Assembly (NCBI RefSeq): GCF_020042345.1
Contig: NZ_CP083387.1
Location: 1,426,001 to 1,490,000 of the forward strand
DNA from: Arachidicoccus terrestris
GTDB lineage: Bacteria > Bacteroidota > Bacteroidia > Chitinophagales > Chitinophagaceae
Direction of reading: 5' to 3'
Length of the DNA stretch: 64,000 bases
Below the pieces are notes generated by a model. The model was not told where the DNA came from. It did not search any database and worked only from the letters and a program-made list of their open reading frames with translations. A program made the position numbers and the translations under genes. Positions 57,454 through 64,000 of the stretch are shown piece by piece; the stretch's first letter is position 1; every line of letters starts with the position of its first letter.

Positions 57454-58482
57454 ATGAAAAACTATTTTTTCAAAAGCTATAATGGTATTATCTTTCTGAT
57501 CTGGACAATCATTATTTTCCTGGTCTTTTTAAATTTTATAAATAGGTATTCGTTTTTACCTTCCGTTGTTTTAACGGTCGTCATTTTCCTTCCGACCATC
57601 TTGATTAGCCATGTCCTAAGCAATCATTTATTAAAAATATTTATGCTTACTGACAGAATGCACATTTTCACGATATGGTTCCTGTCATTATCGCTTTTAC
57701 TATCATTTATCTACGCGTTAATTGACCAGGGCTTCGATATATTATTAACAAACGGGGTGGTCGCATACCCCCGGACGATGTCAGCTAATTCTTTGCTACT
57801 GCAATTCATGAGCGCACTCCCTACTCCGCTTTTAATAAATCTCGGATTTTGCGGACTTCGTTTTTATTATGAACATACCAAACTGCAACAGGCTCATTTA
57901 AAAAGCCAATTACATTTTTTGCAAGAACAGATCAATCCACATTTTATGTTCAATGTGTTAAATAATATCCACATATTAATGCAAAAGGACCTGGAACTTG
58001 CTTCTGCTCAACTGGTCAAATACGCAGATATACTGCGCTATCAACTCTATAACGGCAAAAATGAATGGGTAGCTCTAAAGCAAGAAATCCAGTTTTTGAA
58101 AGATGTTATTGAAGTGGAAAAGATGAGGTGGGGGCATTCATTAAAAGTTCAAACCCGGTGGAAGATCATTGACGGTGAAAAAGTAATACCACCCTTGCTG
58201 CTAATCACATTCATAGAAAATGCATTCAAACACGTTTCCCGGTCCTTATCTGAAACGGGTTACATAAACATATTGGCAGAACAACAGGAAGGCCAGCTCT
58301 ATCTAGAAGTAGTCAACTCAAAATCAATAAAACATCCTCAACAAAATAAAAATGCGGTCACTTCAGGCATCGGTTTAAAGAACATAAAAGAAAGACTGGC
58401 ATTGCTTTATCCCAAAAAACACAATTTGAGCATCGATGAAACGAAAGAGCATTACCGGGTTCAGTTATATATCAATTTTTAA
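57454..58482 (+). CDS. LytS-type sensor histidine kinase
   Basis: A 342-residue membrane kinase of the LytS/His_kinase (PF06580) class. Four N-terminal membrane helices fall within residues about 12-130. The phospho-acceptor is His163 in QEQINPHFMFNVLNNI, followed by an ATPase with PPLLLITFIENAFKHV and GIGLKNIKERLALLYP. No extracellular sensory domain is evident, so the signal probably arises in the membrane. It lies 3 bp from the response regulator gene. Confidence 0.92.
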   Translation: MKNYFFKSYNGIIFLIWTIIIFLVFLNFINRYSFLPSVVLTVVIFLPTILISHVLSNHLLKIFMLTDRMHIFTIWFLSLSLLLSFIYALIDQGFDILLTNGVVAYPRTMSANSLLLQFMSALPTPLLINLGFCGLRFYYEHTKLQQAHLKSQLHFLQEQINPHFMFNVLNNIHILMQKDLELASAQLVKYADILRYQLYNGKNEWVALKQEIQFLKDVIEVEKMRWGHSLKVQTRWKIIDGEKVIPPLLLITFIENAFKHVSRSLSETGYINILAEQQEGQLYLEVVNSKSIKHPQQNKNAVTSGIGLKNIKERLALLYPKKHNLSIDETKEHYRVQLYINF

Positions 58483-58485
58483 TTT

Positions 58486-59226
58486 ATGGAGAAAAAAACT
58501 ATGACTAAAAGCAGCAATAATACGTTGAAGTGTCTGGTTGCTGACGACGAGAGCTTGGCCCGTGAAGGCATTATTTCCTACATAGAAAAGATTGGCTTTT
58601 TACAGGTCGTATCCGTCTGTTCTTCTGCCGTCGAGGTTGGGGAGGTACTTAAAAGAACTTCAATCGACTTGATGTTCCTGGACATCCAAATGCCCCATTT
58701 TTCCGGTATGGAACTTCTTGAGTCTCTTGATCATCCACCTTTAACCATTCTTACTACAGCACATTCAGAATATGCCTTAGAAGGTTATAGATTTCAGGTG
58801 GTGGACTACTTATTGAAACCCATCACTTTTAATCGCTTTTTCCAGGCTGCATTGAGAGCACAGGAACTATTTAGCCTGCGTAACAATAATGAAGAAGTGG
58901 ACCCTTCCGTGTATATTCGTCAGGGCGATTCATTTGTCAAAATCTCGTGGCTCGACGTGCTCTTTGTTGAAAGTATGGAAAACTACCTGAAGCTATATTT
59001 AAAAGAACGAGTGCTGATCATCCATCAGACAATGACCTTTTTAGAAAATGCACTTCCGAAAGACTATTTTTTCAGAATACACAAATCATACTTAGTACAT
59101 CTTTCTCATATTGATGTCATAAAAGGAAATTTTGTGTACATCCAGAATCATCCCATTCCGATTTCAAGGCAGAAAAAGGAAGCCTTTCTGAAAACCGTGG
59201 TCTATAAAAACCTGGTCAGCAAATAA
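58486..59226 (+). CDS. LytTR response regulator
   Basis: A 246-residue regulator. The receiver has acidic DD at 20-21 and phospho-acceptor Asp66 in DLMFLDIQMPHFSG. The LytTR DNA-binding domain (about 145-240) contains YIRQGDSFVKISWLDVLFVESMENYLKLYL and the RIHKSYLVHLSHI region. It pairs with the kinase gene and likely binds the 21-bp direct repeat at 57318-57353. Confidence 0.93.
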   Translation: MEKKTMTKSSNNTLKCLVADDESLAREGIISYIEKIGFLQVVSVCSSAVEVGEVLKRTSIDLMFLDIQMPHFSGMELLESLDHPPLTILTTAHSEYALEGYRFQVVDYLLKPITFNRFFQAALRAQELFSLRNNNEEVDPSVYIRQGDSFVKISWLDVLFVESMENYLKLYLKERVLIIHQTMTFLENALPKDYFFRIHKSYLVHLSHIDVIKGNFVYIQNHPIPISRQKKEAFLKTVVYKNLVSK

Positions 59227-59442
59227 CATGTCAATATGCCCTTGTTTTGACATTAGAAAAACACACATGTTTTAACAATTTCTGAAAGCAGACTTTGTGC
59301 TACTTTATATAATCTTGATCACCCATTCCGGGACCTTGGTTATTTTAAAAAACTGAGCGAACCCTGAGCTAACGAACGTTTGCAGGAATCATCACCGATC
59401 CACTTCCGTATTAAAATTTTAAAATATTCAATAAAAAATATT

Positions 59443-59472
59443 TTTTTAATTAAAAATTGTAGGCTAATTTAG
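59443..59472 (+). promoter_or_regulatory. Promoter of the thr operon and leader
   Basis: A T-run (59441-59447) containing the -33-like TTTT at 59443-59446 is followed, after 18 nt, by TAATTTAG (59465-59472), seven of eight consensus bases. Initiation near 59478 puts the leader-peptide GTG about 14 nt into the transcript. The bases from 59227 to 59440 are AT-rich and otherwise unremarkable. Confidence 0.5.
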
Positions 59473-59491
59473 CTCCACATTTAACAAATAA

Positions 59492-59572
59492 GTGAATAAT
59501 CGTACCCTAAATATTACCTCTTACATTTCCGTAGTGTCCTCCACTACCGGGACGATTATTATTACCCTGTAA
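59492..59572 (+). CDS. Threonine/isoleucine leader peptide of the thr operon
   Basis: A 26-codon frame from GTG, immediately preceded by an in-frame TAA, ending in TAA at 59570-59572. Of its residues six are Thr (four ACC, one ACT, one ACG) and five are Ile (all ATT), with two adjacent Val; the C-terminal part reads TTGTIIITL. The composition, position upstream of thrA and nearby hairpins match leader peptides that couple Thr/Ile charged-tRNA supply to transcription. It is 124 bp upstream of thrA. Translation is inferred, not shown. Confidence 0.7.
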   Translation: MNNRTLNITSYISVVSSTTGTIIITL

Positions 59573-59642
59573 AGGGTAAATCATTGTATATATCATCCAC
59601 TGGGCCGTTAAGGCCGTTTTGTAGAAGCATCTATTTTTCTAC
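59495..59642 (+). promoter_or_regulatory. Candidate attenuator of thrABC
   Basis: Several pairings are possible. AATAATCG (59495-59502) pairs with CGATTATT (59553-59560), enclosing hairpin GTAGTG (59531-59536)/CACTAC (59542-59547). TTACCCT (59562-59568)/AGGGTAA (59573-59579) forms a GTAA-capped stem over the stop codon. An upstream TACCCT (59503-59508) could compete for the same partner. Downstream, GGCC-GTTAA-GGCC plus GTTTT (59603-59620) is a short terminator-like element, and GTAGAA/TTCTAC (59621-59642) a further stem. The terminator is weak by eye. Confidence 0.5.
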
Positions 59643-59696
59643 GATATAAATCAATATCACTTTCATTTACGCTCATTAAACAATTAAACAATATCT

Positions 59697-62147
59697 ATGT
59701 ATGTCTTAAAATTCGGAGGCTCCTCCGTCGCAAATGCCGACAATATCAGAAAAGTAGCTGAGATCGTCCGGGCATCAGAGGCCAACCAAGTGGTCGTTGT
59801 CGTCTCTGCCCTCGGAGGAATGACCAATGAGCTCCTGGCGCTTGGAACCAGGGCTGCGGAAGGCGATGAAAATTATAAAGGGCACCTGGATGAATTGCAG
59901 GAACGCCACATCAATGTTGTAAAGGCTTTGTTACCCATTACCGGCCAGAGCGGCAGCCTCAGCCTGGTCATGCAGCATTTCAATGAACTTGAAGATATCG
60001 CAGAAAGTATATTCCGGCTCAGAGAGTTCTCTCCCGCAACAAAAGATCGCATCCTTGCTTTTGGCGAAACGCTCTCCAGCAAAATCATCGCTGCCTATTT
60101 TGCCTCCCTGAACCTTTCCTATCGGTGGCTCGACGCCAAAGGTGTAATACTAACAAATTCTAAGTTCAGCATGGCTAAGGTACATCTGGAACCGACCATG
60201 GACAATATCAGTAAGACCATCGCCGAGTTTAAAGAAAGAATTATTCTGGTGCCTGGTTTCATTGCCCGCAATAAAAAAGGTCAGACAACCACCCTCGGAA
60301 GAGGAGGGTCAGACTATACAGCCGCACTCTTTGCCGCCGCGCTGAAAGCTACACGTCTGGAGATCTGGACCGATGTATCTGGCATGATGAGTGCAGATCC
60401 CAGATGGGTGAAGGGAGCAAGAATTATTCCTCATATCTCTTTCAAGGAGGCTATGGAGTTATCTCATTTTGGAGCGAAAGTGATCTATCCACCCACTATT
60501 ATCCCGGCCATGAATGCCGGTATACCCATACTTGTAAAAAACACTTTTGATCCTGATGCTGCCGGCACTTTAATCGATAATGAGCCGACCGTTCATGAGC
60601 TGGATCAGGATATCGTTACCGGCATATCCAGTATGACGGAAATCGCGCTACTCAGCATTGAGGGAAGTGGTATGGTCGGGGTTCCCGGCACATCAAAAAC
60701 CCTGTTTGAAACGCTGGCAACAGCTCAAATCAATGTTATACTGATCACGCAGAGTTCTTCTGAACATTCTATCTGTGTGGCCGTCGATGTGGCAGATGTC
60801 GAACTCGCCAAGGAATCCCTCGATAACAGTTTTCAAAATGATATTCAATCAGGAAAAATAGAACCTATTAAAATTGAGCGCGGACTATCCATCGTAGCGC
60901 TTGTAGGGGATAAAATGAAAAGCCATCCGGGCATCAGCGGAAAAATGTTCTCCGTACTCGGCAGAAATGGCATTAATGTTCGCGCCATCGCTCAAGGTAG
61001 CTCAGAAAAGAACATTTCCGCAGTCATCTCATTCGACGACGTCAAAAAAGCAATCAATGTGCTGCATGAAGCGTTCTTTGAGAAAGTCTATAAACAATTA
61101 AACCTGTTTATTGTAGGCGTCGGCAATGTGGGATCCAGATTGCTTTCCCAATTGAAACAACAAAGAGAATATCTGCTTCACAACCTGAATATACAACTTA
61201 GAATAGCAGGCCTGGCCAATAGCCGCAAAATGGTCTTTTCTGATAATGGCGGTGTCTGTCTGGATAACTGGGAAAATGCTTTACAGCAGGGCAATAAGTT
61301 TGAGCTGGCAGCATTTATCAATACTGTTCTAGAGAAAAACGTGCGTAATGCCGTTGTGGTAGATGTTACAGCCAATGCTTCCATTGCCGGCACCTATAAA
61401 AGGTTTCTGGAAAAAAGTGTAGCCGTGGTGGCTTGCAATAAAATAGCCTGCTCTTCTTCTTATGACGACTACCAGCAGTTAAAGACACTCTCCAAGTCGT
61501 TTAATGCACCATTTTTCTTCGAGACAAATGTTGGTGCGGGACTTCCTGTGATCGGAACGCTAAACGATCTGTTAAGAAGTGGCGATGAGGTCCTAAAGAT
61601 CCAGGCGGTACTTTCAGGGACACTCAATTATGTATTCAATAACTATGATACGACCACCAGCTTTGAACAAGTGGTCAGACAGGCGCAAAAGGACGGCTAT
61701 ACAGAGCCGGATCCGCGGTTAGACCTTGGCGGGACAGATGTGATGCGCAAAATTCTGATCCTGGCCCGGGAGGCTGGATTTGAGCTGAATATGGAGGACA
61801 TTCAAAATACCCCGTTTCTTCCCGAGTCTTGCTTTGAAGGGAGTGTTGAAGATTTTTATGGTCAGCTGAAAGTCCATGAAGGCCATTTTAAGAAATTGTT
61901 TGAAGAGGCTTCTGCCAAGAATTGTAAACTGAAATATGTAGCTAATTTTGAGCCAGGCAACGCCAGCGTAGGATTACAGTCCGTATCTCCTGATTCTGAC
62001 TTTTACCATCTTTATGGCAAAGACAATATTGTTCTTTTCTATACAAAAAGGTATCCGGACCAACCGCTTGTTATCAAAGGTGCGGGCGCCGGAGCAGAAG
62101 TAACGGCTAGTGGTGTTTTTGCGGATCTGATCAAAACCGTTTATTAA
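59697..62147 (+). CDS. thrA: Bifunctional aspartokinase / homoserine dehydrogenase
   Basis: An 816-residue fusion catalysing the first and third steps from aspartate to threonine. The kinase has MYVLKFGGSSVANADN and SDYTAALFAAALKA with GRGG at its core (residues 1-300). Two ACT regulatory domains at about 305-460 carry feedback-inhibition sites. The dehydrogenase starts with the NAD(P) motif FIVGVGNVGSRLLSQL (about 470) and continues through KIQAVLSGTLNYVF and GYTEPDPRLDLGGTDVMRK. thrB follows after 38 bp. It is probably inhibited by threonine. Confidence 0.96.
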   Translation: MYVLKFGGSSVANADNIRKVAEIVRASEANQVVVVVSALGGMTNELLALGTRAAEGDENYKGHLDELQERHINVVKALLPITGQSGSLSLVMQHFNELEDIAESIFRLREFSPATKDRILAFGETLSSKIIAAYFASLNLSYRWLDAKGVILTNSKFSMAKVHLEPTMDNISKTIAEFKERIILVPGFIARNKKGQTTTLGRGGSDYTAALFAAALKATRLEIWTDVSGMMSADPRWVKGARIIPHISFKEAMELSHFGAKVIYPPTIIPAMNAGIPILVKNTFDPDAAGTLIDNEPTVHELDQDIVTGISSMTEIALLSIEGSGMVGVPGTSKTLFETLATAQINVILITQSSSEHSICVAVDVADVELAKESLDNSFQNDIQSGKIEPIKIERGLSIVALVGDKMKSHPGISGKMFSVLGRNGINVRAIAQGSSEKNISAVISFDDVKKAINVLHEAFFEKVYKQLNLFIVGVGNVGSRLLSQLKQQREYLLHNLNIQLRIAGLANSRKMVFSDNGGVCLDNWENALQQGNKFELAAFINTVLEKNVRNAVVVDVTANASIAGTYKRFLEKSVAVVACNKIACSSSYDDYQQLKTLSKSFNAPFFFETNVGAGLPVIGTLNDLLRSGDEVLKIQAVLSGTLNYVFNNYDTTTSFEQVVRQAQKDGYTEPDPRLDLGGTDVMRKILILAREAGFELNMEDIQNTPFLPESCFEGSVEDFYGQLKVHEGHFKKLFEEASAKNCKLKYVANFEPGNASVGLQSVSPDSDFYHLYGKDNIVLFYTKRYPDQPLVIKGAGAGAEVTASGVFADLIKTVY

Positions 62148-62185: not shown

Positions 62186-63115
62186 ATGAAAGCATGTATT
62201 GCTTATGCGCCCGGAACTGTAGCCAACCTTGTATGTGGATTTGATATCCTCGGACTCTGCCTGGACTCTCCTGCGGACAAAATGGAAGTGAGACTTACGG
62301 ATAAAGCGGAAATCATTATCCGCAGCGCCGACGGCTATCCACTACCAGAAGATCCGGCACTTAATACAGCCGGGGCTCCATTATTAGAAATGTTGCAGGA
62401 CCTCGATCAAAAACTGGGCTTTGAAATTCTGATCCATAAAAGGATCAAACCAGGCAGCGGTATCGGGTCCAGTGCCGCCAGCGCAGCTGGCGCCGTAGTG
62501 GCGGCTAATTATTTGTTAGGCAACCCTTTTGACAAAGCACAATTAATTCAATATGCAATGGCAGGAGAAAAGGTAGCCAGTGGCGTCAAGCACGCAGATA
62601 ATGTAGCGCCTTGCGTTTATGGTGGCATTACTCTGATACGTAGCATCGCGCCTTTGGATATTATTCCGCTGGCTGCACCTGATCTCTATGTCAGTGTAGT
62701 ACATCCACAAATTGAAGTCAGAACGGCGGACGCCAGGGCAATATTACGCCAGCAGATCCCCTTGAAAAACGCGATCCGGCAGTGGGGAAATATAGCGGGG
62801 CTGGTCACCGGAATTCTTAAAAACGATGCGGCATTAATCGGCAGAAGTCTTGAGGATCACATTATAGAACCCATACGTAGCACTTTGATCCCCGGCTTTA
62901 AGGAATTGAAAGAAAGCTGTAAAGAAGCTGGCGCCTTGGGCGGCGGTATCTCAGGATCCGGGCCTTCCATTTTTATGCTGAGTACTTCCAGACATACTGC
63001 ACAACAGGTAGAAGAGGTTATGCAAAAGACTTACATTGAACTTGGTATAGAATATCACAGTTATGTTTCTATGATCAACAAAGAAGGCGTCAGAATTGAA
63101 CCCGTAAAAGGTTAA
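62186..63115 (+). CDS. thrB: Homoserine kinase
   Basis: A 309-residue GHMP kinase that phosphorylates homoserine. The N-terminus AYAPGTVANLVCGFDILGLCLD is the homoserine-binding region, and the GHMP phosphate-binding motif is KPGSGIGSSAASAAGAVVAAN. GGGISGSGPSIFML near the end is the third GHMP motif. It is the second gene of thrABC. Confidence 0.95.
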   Translation: MKACIAYAPGTVANLVCGFDILGLCLDSPADKMEVRLTDKAEIIIRSADGYPLPEDPALNTAGAPLLEMLQDLDQKLGFEILIHKRIKPGSGIGSSAASAAGAVVAANYLLGNPFDKAQLIQYAMAGEKVASGVKHADNVAPCVYGGITLIRSIAPLDIIPLAAPDLYVSVVHPQIEVRTADARAILRQQIPLKNAIRQWGNIAGLVTGILKNDAALIGRSLEDHIIEPIRSTLIPGFKELKESCKEAGALGGGISGSGPSIFMLSTSRHTAQQVEEVMQKTYIELGIEYHSYVSMINKEGVRIEPVKG

Positions 63116-63165: not shown

Positions 63166-64000
63166 ATGCAATATTATAGTTTACAACACCAAGCCCCAAA
63201 TGTGTCTTTCAGGGAAGCTGTACTAAAAGGGCAGGCACCTGACAAAGGGCTCTATTTTCCAGAAGAGTTACCCAAATTGTCCAAGGACTTCGTCGAGAGC
63301 CTCTCGTCACTCAGCAAAGAAGAGATCGGCACTACCGTTATGCGACCCTATGTCGGGGAAGACATTCCAGAGCAGGATTTAAAAAAAATCGTTTCAGAGA
63401 CCATTAATTTTGACTTTCCACTCGTAAAGATCAATGATCATATTTCGTCACTGGAATTATTCCATGGTCCGACCTATGCATTCAAAGATGTAGGGGCCCG
63501 ATTCATGAGTCGTTGCCTGGGTTATTTCCAAAAAGAAGAAAATAAGAAAACAACCATTTTAGTAGCCACCTCAGGTGATACGGGAGGTGCTGTCGCCAAC
63601 GGTTTTCTGGGTGTTGACGGCGTCGAAGTTATTATCCTGTATCCTTCGGGCAAAGTCAGCCCCATCCAAGAGCTACAGTTAACGACCTGTGGGCAGAATA
63701 TTACAGCCCTGGAGATTGAAGGTAGTTTTGATGATTGCCAGGCGATTGTCAAACAAGCGTTCATGGATCAGGACCTAAATGACGCCTATAATCTAACCTC
63801 TGCCAATTCCATTAATGTTGGTCGCTGGCTTCCTCAGCAACTCTATTATTTTTTCGGATTGCAGCAATGGGACCAACGTCAACCACCCGTCATTTGCGTC
63901 CCCAGCGGTAATTTCGGTAATATCTGCGCCGGCATATTAGCCCATATCAGTGGGCTGCCTGTAGAACATTTCATGGCTGCCTGTAATGCAAACGATACGG
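63166..64000 (+). CDS. thrC: Threonine synthase, N-terminal part (cut by window edge)
   Basis: The first 278 residues of the PLP enzyme that turns O-phosphohomoserine into threonine. The Schiff-base lysine is K107 in HGPTYAFKDVGARF. TSGDTGGAVANGFLG binds the cofactor phosphate, and NSINVGRWLPQQLYYF and PSGNFGNICAGILA are conserved. The start ATG at 63166 lies 50 bp after thrB. The C-terminus is outside the window. Confidence 0.95.
   Translation, partial: MQYYSLQHQAPNVSFREAVLKGQAPDKGLYFPEELPKLSKDFVESLSSLSKEEIGTTVMRPYVGEDIPEQDLKKIVSETINFDFPLVKINDHISSLELFHGPTYAFKDVGARFMSRCLGYFQKEENKKTTILVATSGDTGGAVANGFLGVDGVEVIILYPSGKVSPIQELQLTTCGQNITALEIEGSFDDCQAIVKQAFMDQDLNDAYNLTSANSINVGRWLPQQLYYFFGLQQWDQRQPPVICVPSGNFGNICAGILAHISGLPVEHFMAACNANDT

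Follow-up and report, generated by a model that had tools for sequence, protein, structure and literature searches.

The threonine operon thrABC lies at the end of a 64,000-nt stretch of DNA (the window) from a 4.9 Mb, single-contig genome of the genus Arachidicoccus (Chitinophagaceae, Bacteroidota). The subject here is the region 5' of this operon, where a short reading frame rich in threonine and isoleucine codons is found together with conserved RNA hairpins. All features given below are on the forward (+) strand. The operon begins with thrA (59697-62147), a bifunctional aspartate kinase / homoserine dehydrogenase I by NCBIfam NF006959 (1015 bits against a cut-off of 726). It continues with thrB, the homoserine kinase gene (62186-63115; NF002288 and TIGR00191, both above cut-off), and thrC, for threonine synthase (63166-63999; TIGR00260, above cut-off), which is cut by the window end. 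The thrA protein is 89-90% identical to thrA of two relatives, matching Arachidicoccus rhizosphaerae and A. ginsenosidivorans.

The Thr/Ile leader frame and its predicted promoter

The leader frame, MNNRTLNITSYISVVSSTTGTIIITL, occupies 59492-59572 with its stop codon included. It starts with GTG and has 26 codons, of which six Thr and five Ile make up 42%, as an earlier note on this DNA had described. Sequence and family pattern both mark a Thr/Ile codon run, ACT ACC GGG ACG ATT ATT ATT ACC, at 59543-59566. A short open reading frame (ORF) rich in end-product codons before the matching operon, one mark of the attenuator class, is present here. An equally dense 10-residue Thr/Ile ORF appears in 3 of 400 mononucleotide shuffles of the 470 bases from the upstream ORF to thrA.

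The frame is conserved in relatives. From Chitinophagaceae, 103 usable thrA upstream regions were collected; those dropped were L021 (upstream cut off), L024 (a C-terminal piece of thrA), and L031 and L032 (the same genomes as L002 and L003). A leader was counted where a frame has at least six Thr/Ile, of which three Thr, within its last 16 codons. By this count a Thr/Ile-rich leader is found in 96 of the 103 regions and in 0 of 103 in the reverse-complement control. With such conservation the frame is not due to chance, and it bears out the earlier proposal of a Thr/Ile regulatory leader of thrABC, for which homologous upstream regions were the suggested check. Seven regions fall short. L009 and L068 (one genus), L114 and L117 have no leader that could be seen upstream of thrA; L030, L120 and L122 belong to two lineages that carry a strong terminator. 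Outside the family, 21 of 50 thrA upstream regions have a leader by the same count.

Segment and motif counts in what follows come from 83 of 92 loci. The near-duplicates L067, L073, L087 and L089 were dropped, as were L004, L040, L058, L060 and L108, where the search pattern for two elements described below (X2 and hairpin C) failed. Counts on 80 leaders are from the same loci minus L076, L079 and L085, which have no ATG or GTG frame. Both sets describe the typical form of the leader, not divergent ones. Over the last 13 codons of the 80 leaders, Thr and Ile account for 66% in frame, compared with 2.1% and 2.7% in the other frames. The Thr codons vary synonymously (ACA 184, ACC 160, ACT 107, ACG 38), so it is the amino acid that is kept. 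Asp (0.4% of residues) and Glu (0.6%) are nearly absent from these peptides.

A predicted -7 promoter box of the Bacteroidota type TAnnTTnG, TAATTTAG, is located at 59465-59472, its position being 27 nt before the ORF start. Of 80 family leaders, 47 have the same pattern in the 45 nt that precede the leader start, compared with 8.9% in shuffles. The flavobacterial -7 consensus is TAnnTTTG according to PMC9723704. In 28 of 83 loci the 200 nt before the leader contain another sequence, TAACN4-5GTT (often CTAACGnTTGTTA), compared with 4.7% in shuffles. The window has a copy at 59370-59380, and copies also precede the leaders of other family members, often about 44-54 nt before the leader start, near the expected -33 position. 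It is possibly a transcription factor site.

Hairpins, helix A and a repeated motif

The GTAA-capped hairpin that the earlier note placed over the leader stop codon is present. This hairpin B, UUACCCU-GUAA-AGGGUAA (TTACCCT-GTAA-AGGGTAA in the DNA), spans 59562-59579, with the stop TAA at 59570-59572. Among relatives B is found in several sequence forms, including ACCC/GGGU, AUCCGC/GCGGAU, AUCCCGU/ACGGGAU and ACCCUC/GAGGGU. A second hairpin, C (GGCC-GUUAA-GGCC, 59603-59615), has 3-6 bp in the family, mostly 3-5 bp, and the form GGC(N)-loop-(N')GCY in most loci; a few deviate strongly (ACCAC/GUGGU, UUCC/GGAA). Between the two, CAUAUYAYC is conserved. The spacing from B to C is 18-25 nt in all 83 loci, and that from C to thrA 40-226 nt. 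The stop codon lies in the B loop or within 15 nt of B in 80 of 80 loci, a count that is partly by construction since loci were selected for an ORF ending near B.

Both hairpins covary. In B, five of eight modelled pairs show changes on both sides and three are invariant; in C, the GGC:GCY pairs are changed on both sides in 3 of 3. Together this makes 8 of 11 pairs, where the shuffle mean is 5.0 and 1 of 500 shuffles is as high. In this test, for which the alignment was fitted to the structure, the covariation score is 0.193, compared with 0.108 (sd 0.007) in shuffles and at most 0.111 with the structure slid. A swap test of B and C (z -14) was not used as evidence; it is circular, the arms having been chosen as complements.

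A covariance model of B, X2 and C, termed R1, was run on a 100-locus set made of the 96 of 103 family loci left after removal of L030, L114, L117 and L120-L123 (known not to fit) plus four named loci. It matches 90 of the 100, 40 of these being its own training rows, and misses L003, L009, L017, L023, L054, L060, L068, L095, L113 and L115. In 98 family genomes there are 55 matches at E ≤0.05, one per genome. Of these, 51 lie 37-239 nt upstream of a thrA match; in G080 the match precedes a partial thrA match by 585 nt, and in G071, G101 and G122 it is on contigs with no listed thrA match. With one match per genome in 55 of 98 genomes, the idea of a general amino-acid attenuator module was discarded. 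In the genome of the window R1 found nothing else convincing besides the thr leader (six further matches have E values of 2-10). A five-His pattern matched there five times at four loci (L211 overlaps L210), and no His leader was seen among them.

The whole 223-nt leader folds at -46.6 kcal/mol, while shuffles average -30.8 (sd 3.9); this corresponds to z -4.0, and 0 of 200 shuffles are as low. A third stem, helix A, joins the start region of the leader to its own Thr/Ile codons. Its 5' arm, AAUAAUCGU (59495-59503), consists of codons 2-4 immediately after the GUG, and its 3' arm, ACGAUUAUU (59552-59560), is within the Thr/Ile codons. Both arms come from the predicted fold and from covariation in segment swaps. 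The native duplex energy is below that of all 200 swaps (z -6.3) over 55 rows, one per genus, where three rows are named loci counted as their own genus. In a less anchored test the native value is -12.97 and that of swaps -11.38 (sd 0.31). The earlier suggestion that this leader has an RNA design of its own is supported.

Pairing of the start codon itself is another matter. At least two of its bases are paired in helix A in 32 of 55 rows, compared with 26.4 (sd 3.3) in swaps; a span-based count (33 of 55 against 22.7, maximum 30) was set aside as too generous, flanking bases being included. In the window, 0 start-codon bases are paired to the Thr/Ile run and the start codon is outside the stem. 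On the recounted pairing helix A is claimed, and a lock on the start codon is not.

The motif AUAUYAY appears twice. Counted from the first base of the codon concerned, X1 (ATATTAC, 59511-59517) comes 19 nt after the start codon, and the AUAU of X2 (UAUAUCAUCC, 59589-59598) begins 20 nt after the stop codon. Of the 80 leaders, 42 have AUAUYAY within the frame (8.9% in codon shuffles), and among the 55 genus rows 31 do; in 31 of the 42 its place is exactly +19 by the same count. At codon 7, 59 of 80 leaders encode H, Y, N or D, 51 of them by a codon with a final T and 8 by one with a final C. This NAT to NAC ratio of 51 : 8 compares with 89 : 70 elsewhere (Fisher p 2.6e-5), and all 37 His codons at codon 7 are CAT. 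X2 begins 18-20 nt after the stop codon in 59 of the 72 loci with the stop in the B loop, and 6-10 nt after B in 76 of 83. The X2 search pattern required CATAT-like letters, so in the stop-spacing test only the spacing counts as evidence; the letters are conserved in alignments, whose rows were picked by the same pattern, and in R1 matches. No AUAUYAY occurs at +15 to +24 of the start or stop in the 44 ATG-started window ORFs of at least 150 codons.

A nascent-chain signal, HI(I/T)(S/T), was considered for X1 (18 of 80 leaders, 0.9% in shuffles) and rejected, as the residue at codon 7 varies among H, Y, N and D. Since this residue varies while its codon mostly ends in T, the signal is read as a nucleotide-level one that belongs to the start as well as the end of the leader. 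Its positions would suit a polymerase pause or a ribosome-front element.

Other designs at the same operon

Several relatives within the class Bacteroidia precede the same operon with a different output element. In family f58 (L181, L183, L187, L189, L192 and L196) all six rows have a Thr/Ile leader, a terminator of -16.0 to -22.5 kcal/mol with a U-rich tail and, close to the leader stop, a complementary segment; the stop-codon hairpin was found in 0 of 6. Such textbook attenuators at the same operon suggest that leader-peptide transcription attenuation is in use here in the phylum. Within the Chitinophagaceae, a strong hairpin with a U-rich tail replaces B, X2 and C in the lineages g15 and g30 (L030, L120, L121 and L122). 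The four terminators have -18.5 to -20.8 kcal/mol, and only L121 has a leader by the count used above. By eye, the terminator 5' arm (CUUCCUCC) could pair with GGAGG at the leader end. The two lineages show a change of output design at one operon. Unlike the window, all ten rows of f58, g15 and g30 have the strong hairpin and U-rich tail. When all 24 rows from other families and lineages are put through the terminator test, 14 pass.

Seven other families (f72, f32, f33, f35, f52, f75 and f67) supplied 14 leaders, of which 13 have a perfect hairpin of 4-6 bp at the stop codon; L197 is the one without it. Of the 21 outside leaders that pass the Thr/Ile count, L173 and L195 were left out of this survey, and L205 was added though it fails the count. 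L167, of family f67, combines a stop-codon hairpin with a strong terminator. Its terminator 5' arm, GCAGCCCG, is complementary to the 3' side of the stop hairpin, CGGGCUGC, an arrangement that would make a classical switch in which B is the first hairpin.

Across one Bacteroidota family a Thr/Ile leader with its own RNA design has been conserved, and a single class shows two or more output designs at the same operon.

Proposed mechanism, rival explanations and known systems

The region is probably a leader-peptide attenuator that couples thrABC to charged tRNA-Thr and tRNA-Ile, with its output in transcription. The proposed steps derive from the L167 case and from the geometry of the leader. 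Under a shortage of Thr or Ile the pioneer ribosome would stall in the codon run and hold helix A open; the stalled ribosome would cover the B 5' arm and leave the B 3' arm free. When both are plentiful, it would proceed to the stop codon, cover the B 3' arm and then leave. Once the ribosome has left the Thr/Ile run, helix A could close at the leader start. Transcription elongation between B and thrA would respond to these two ribosome states.

In the absence of a U-tract terminator the output is more likely a hairpin-stabilised pause at X2/C, Rho, or both, than intrinsic termination. A pause at X2/C and/or Rho acting on the G-poor stretch before thrA is offered as a guess at the output step. 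This stretch (59631-59696) has a C content of 0.197 and a G content of 0.030. The family means from C to thrA are 0.181 and 0.073 (83 loci), and the window's 31 intergenic upstream stretches, among them that of thrA, have 0.175 and 0.164. Rho prefers C-rich, G-poor RNA, and RNA of this kind after the leader ORF is what, by composition alone, the window shares with Rho-dependent leaders. A fuller two-stage scenario, with AUAUYAY as a pause or ribosome-front element used twice and the outcome set by Rho or the pause, is tentative and on balance doubtful. In it, X1 would give the pioneer ribosome time to load before the Thr/Ile codons have been transcribed and can pair back to the leader start as helix A, and X2 with B would hold the polymerase until the ribosome reports whether the stop codon has been reached.

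The earlier note also proposed an unusually weak terminator and a switch in which two TACCCT copies compete for one AGGGTA. An attenuator stands as the probable logic; neither of these parts is supported. Between 59572 and 59697 of the window no intrinsic terminator was found, canonical or weak, and the sole terminator-like match, at 59535-59554, is inside the leader ORF (0.4 expected in shuffles). A hairpin D (GUAGAA...UUCUAC, 59621-59642) is predicted in the fold, lacks a U tail and is not conserved in sequence. As for the switch, only the window's own sequence has the upstream TACCCT (59503-59508) among six genus members compared: L002 has TACCCA, L003 TATCCA, and L004-L006 differ. In the predicted fold the CCC of this copy belongs to helix A, and the segment swaps gave no covarying competing pairing. 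Two further marks of the attenuator class, an intrinsic terminator between leader and first gene and a mutually exclusive antiterminator pairing, were not found.

That missing terminator is the first of several findings that weigh against the attenuator proposed here. In the family, 12 of 80 leaders pass a lenient terminator test between the leader stop and thrA, and all of them are weak (-5 to -10.3 kcal/mol). No covarying antiterminator partner for the B 3' arm or C was found in segment swaps, a test that an invariant pairing would escape. Pairing of the B 3' arm with X2 (GGGUUGUA with UAUYAYCC) was tried as the antiterminator and rejected, the native sequences being worse than swapped ones (z +3.8); in truncated folds this pairing reaches at least 2 bp in 29 of 83 loci. 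Other swap tests of C or the B 3' arm range from z -2.6 (C 3' arm with mid-leader) to +3.3. A pairing of the B 3' arm near the thrA start would point the wrong way; there the native sequences pair slightly better with the 20 nt before thrA (z -3.7, 83 loci) in one of 69 tests. A lock of the start codon by helix A is matched by 4 of 60 swaps, which reach the same 32 rows, and what points to Rho is base composition. Further pair types in B and C number 15, not above the 13.8 of shuffles (159 of 500). In B, the two outermost pairs of the model do not form in 49 and 32 of 88 rows. R1, trained without the CCCUGUAAAGGG form of B, scores the window's own copy weakly (21.6 bits, E 0.098 in its genome), and it misses the genus member L003.

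A classical intrinsic attenuator as in E. coli, with C or D as a terminator with a weak U-tract and an upstream strand as antiterminator, is unlikely. It would account for the U-runs that follow C in some members (L004 GCCGUUUUUCU, L005 GCCGUUUUUU, L019 GCUGUUUUUU) and for hairpin D with a U tail in a few others (L109, L111, L126). D hairpins are on average stabler than shuffles (-2.02 against -1.02, z -5.7), terminator-like scores below -4 are found in 11 of 83 loci (5.3% in shuffles), and real terminators exist in f58 and in g15/g30. Yet the window is among the leaders that fail even the lenient test, the U content at the second to sixth base after C (33-49%) is no higher than further downstream, C mostly has only 3-5 bp, and no antiterminator covaries. 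Control of the translation or stability of thrA mRNA by leader and hairpins, rather than of transcription, would remove the need for a terminator and is somewhat harder still to credit. TetQ-type translational attenuation occurs in Bacteroides, and the weak pairing of the B 3' arm before thrA would suit it, but of the 24 segment tests made against the thrA start the 23 others stay within ±2.1, the distance from C to thrA is as variable as noted above, and openness at the thrA start (unpaired 0.57) is similar to that of the remaining leader (0.52).

Very improbable is an untranslated frame whose Thr/Ile codons are a by-product of a structured RNA, for example a threonine riboswitch. Strong conserved RNA structure and the conservation of X1 at the nucleotide level inside the frame are what such an RNA would show; against it stand the codon periodicity with its free synonymous exchange, hairpins that change in sequence while the Thr/Ile run stays, and, with the reservation on locus choice already made, the constant place of the stop codon at B.

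The closest known system is the E. coli thr leader (thrL; Rfam RF00506, Thr_leader), also a short Thr/Ile-rich peptide before thrABC, where the position of the ribosome is thought to choose between RNA folds. The leader described here differs in its hairpin on the stop codon, in helix A between start region and Thr/Ile codons, in the AUAUYAY repeat, and in that no U-tract terminator was found. RF00506 has no match in the leader of the window (E up to 5) or of four relatives (E up to 1); one 24.5-bit match in relatives (cut-off 55) is outside the leader and on the opposite strand. No other Rfam family, T-box and known riboswitches included, matches these leaders either. In the E. coli trp and his leaders, hairpin-stabilised pauses occur. 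By analogy, a hairpin is followed here at short distance by a conserved stretch where the polymerase could pause; unlike in those leaders, the hairpin includes the stop codon, and pausing is only proposed. Rho-dependent leaders such as tna likewise have a C-over-G stretch between the leader stop and the first gene, a likeness of composition alone, and unlike tna there is no known nascent-peptide stall here.

A 2010 comparative study of attenuation may list thr leaders in Bacteroidetes. In the literature searched, leader-peptide attenuation in Bacteroidota gave no match, and Chitinophagaceae leader peptides only a genome announcement. Neither the stop-codon hairpin nor helix A nor the AUAUYAY repeat was found described there, although earlier thr-leader predictions are possible. 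To our knowledge, transcription-translation coupling has been little studied in Bacteroidota. If the terminator-free version works, it would point to close coupling in this phylum, offer a compact natural system for its study, and add an RNA family missing from Rfam 15. For Flavobacterium psychrophilum, of the same phylum and a different family, PMC9723704 reports strong clues for leader-peptide attenuation before amino-acid operons, with conserved 5' elements that include pheA and hisG; the word 'threonine' is absent from its main text. Leader-like small ORFs are mentioned in B. thetaiotaomicron in PMC7366714, and PMC3766115 states that attenuator motifs may come from gamma-proteobacteria. 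Terms for Bacteroidota and threonine do not occur in PMC2965389.

Directly 5' of the thr leader, on the same strand, two genes occupy 57454-59226: an ORF of 342 aa that has no NCBIfam match and, after it, a LytR/BtsR-like response regulator. The best NCBIfam matches of the regulator are BtsR and LytR, both below cut-off. The two genes could be a two-component pair.

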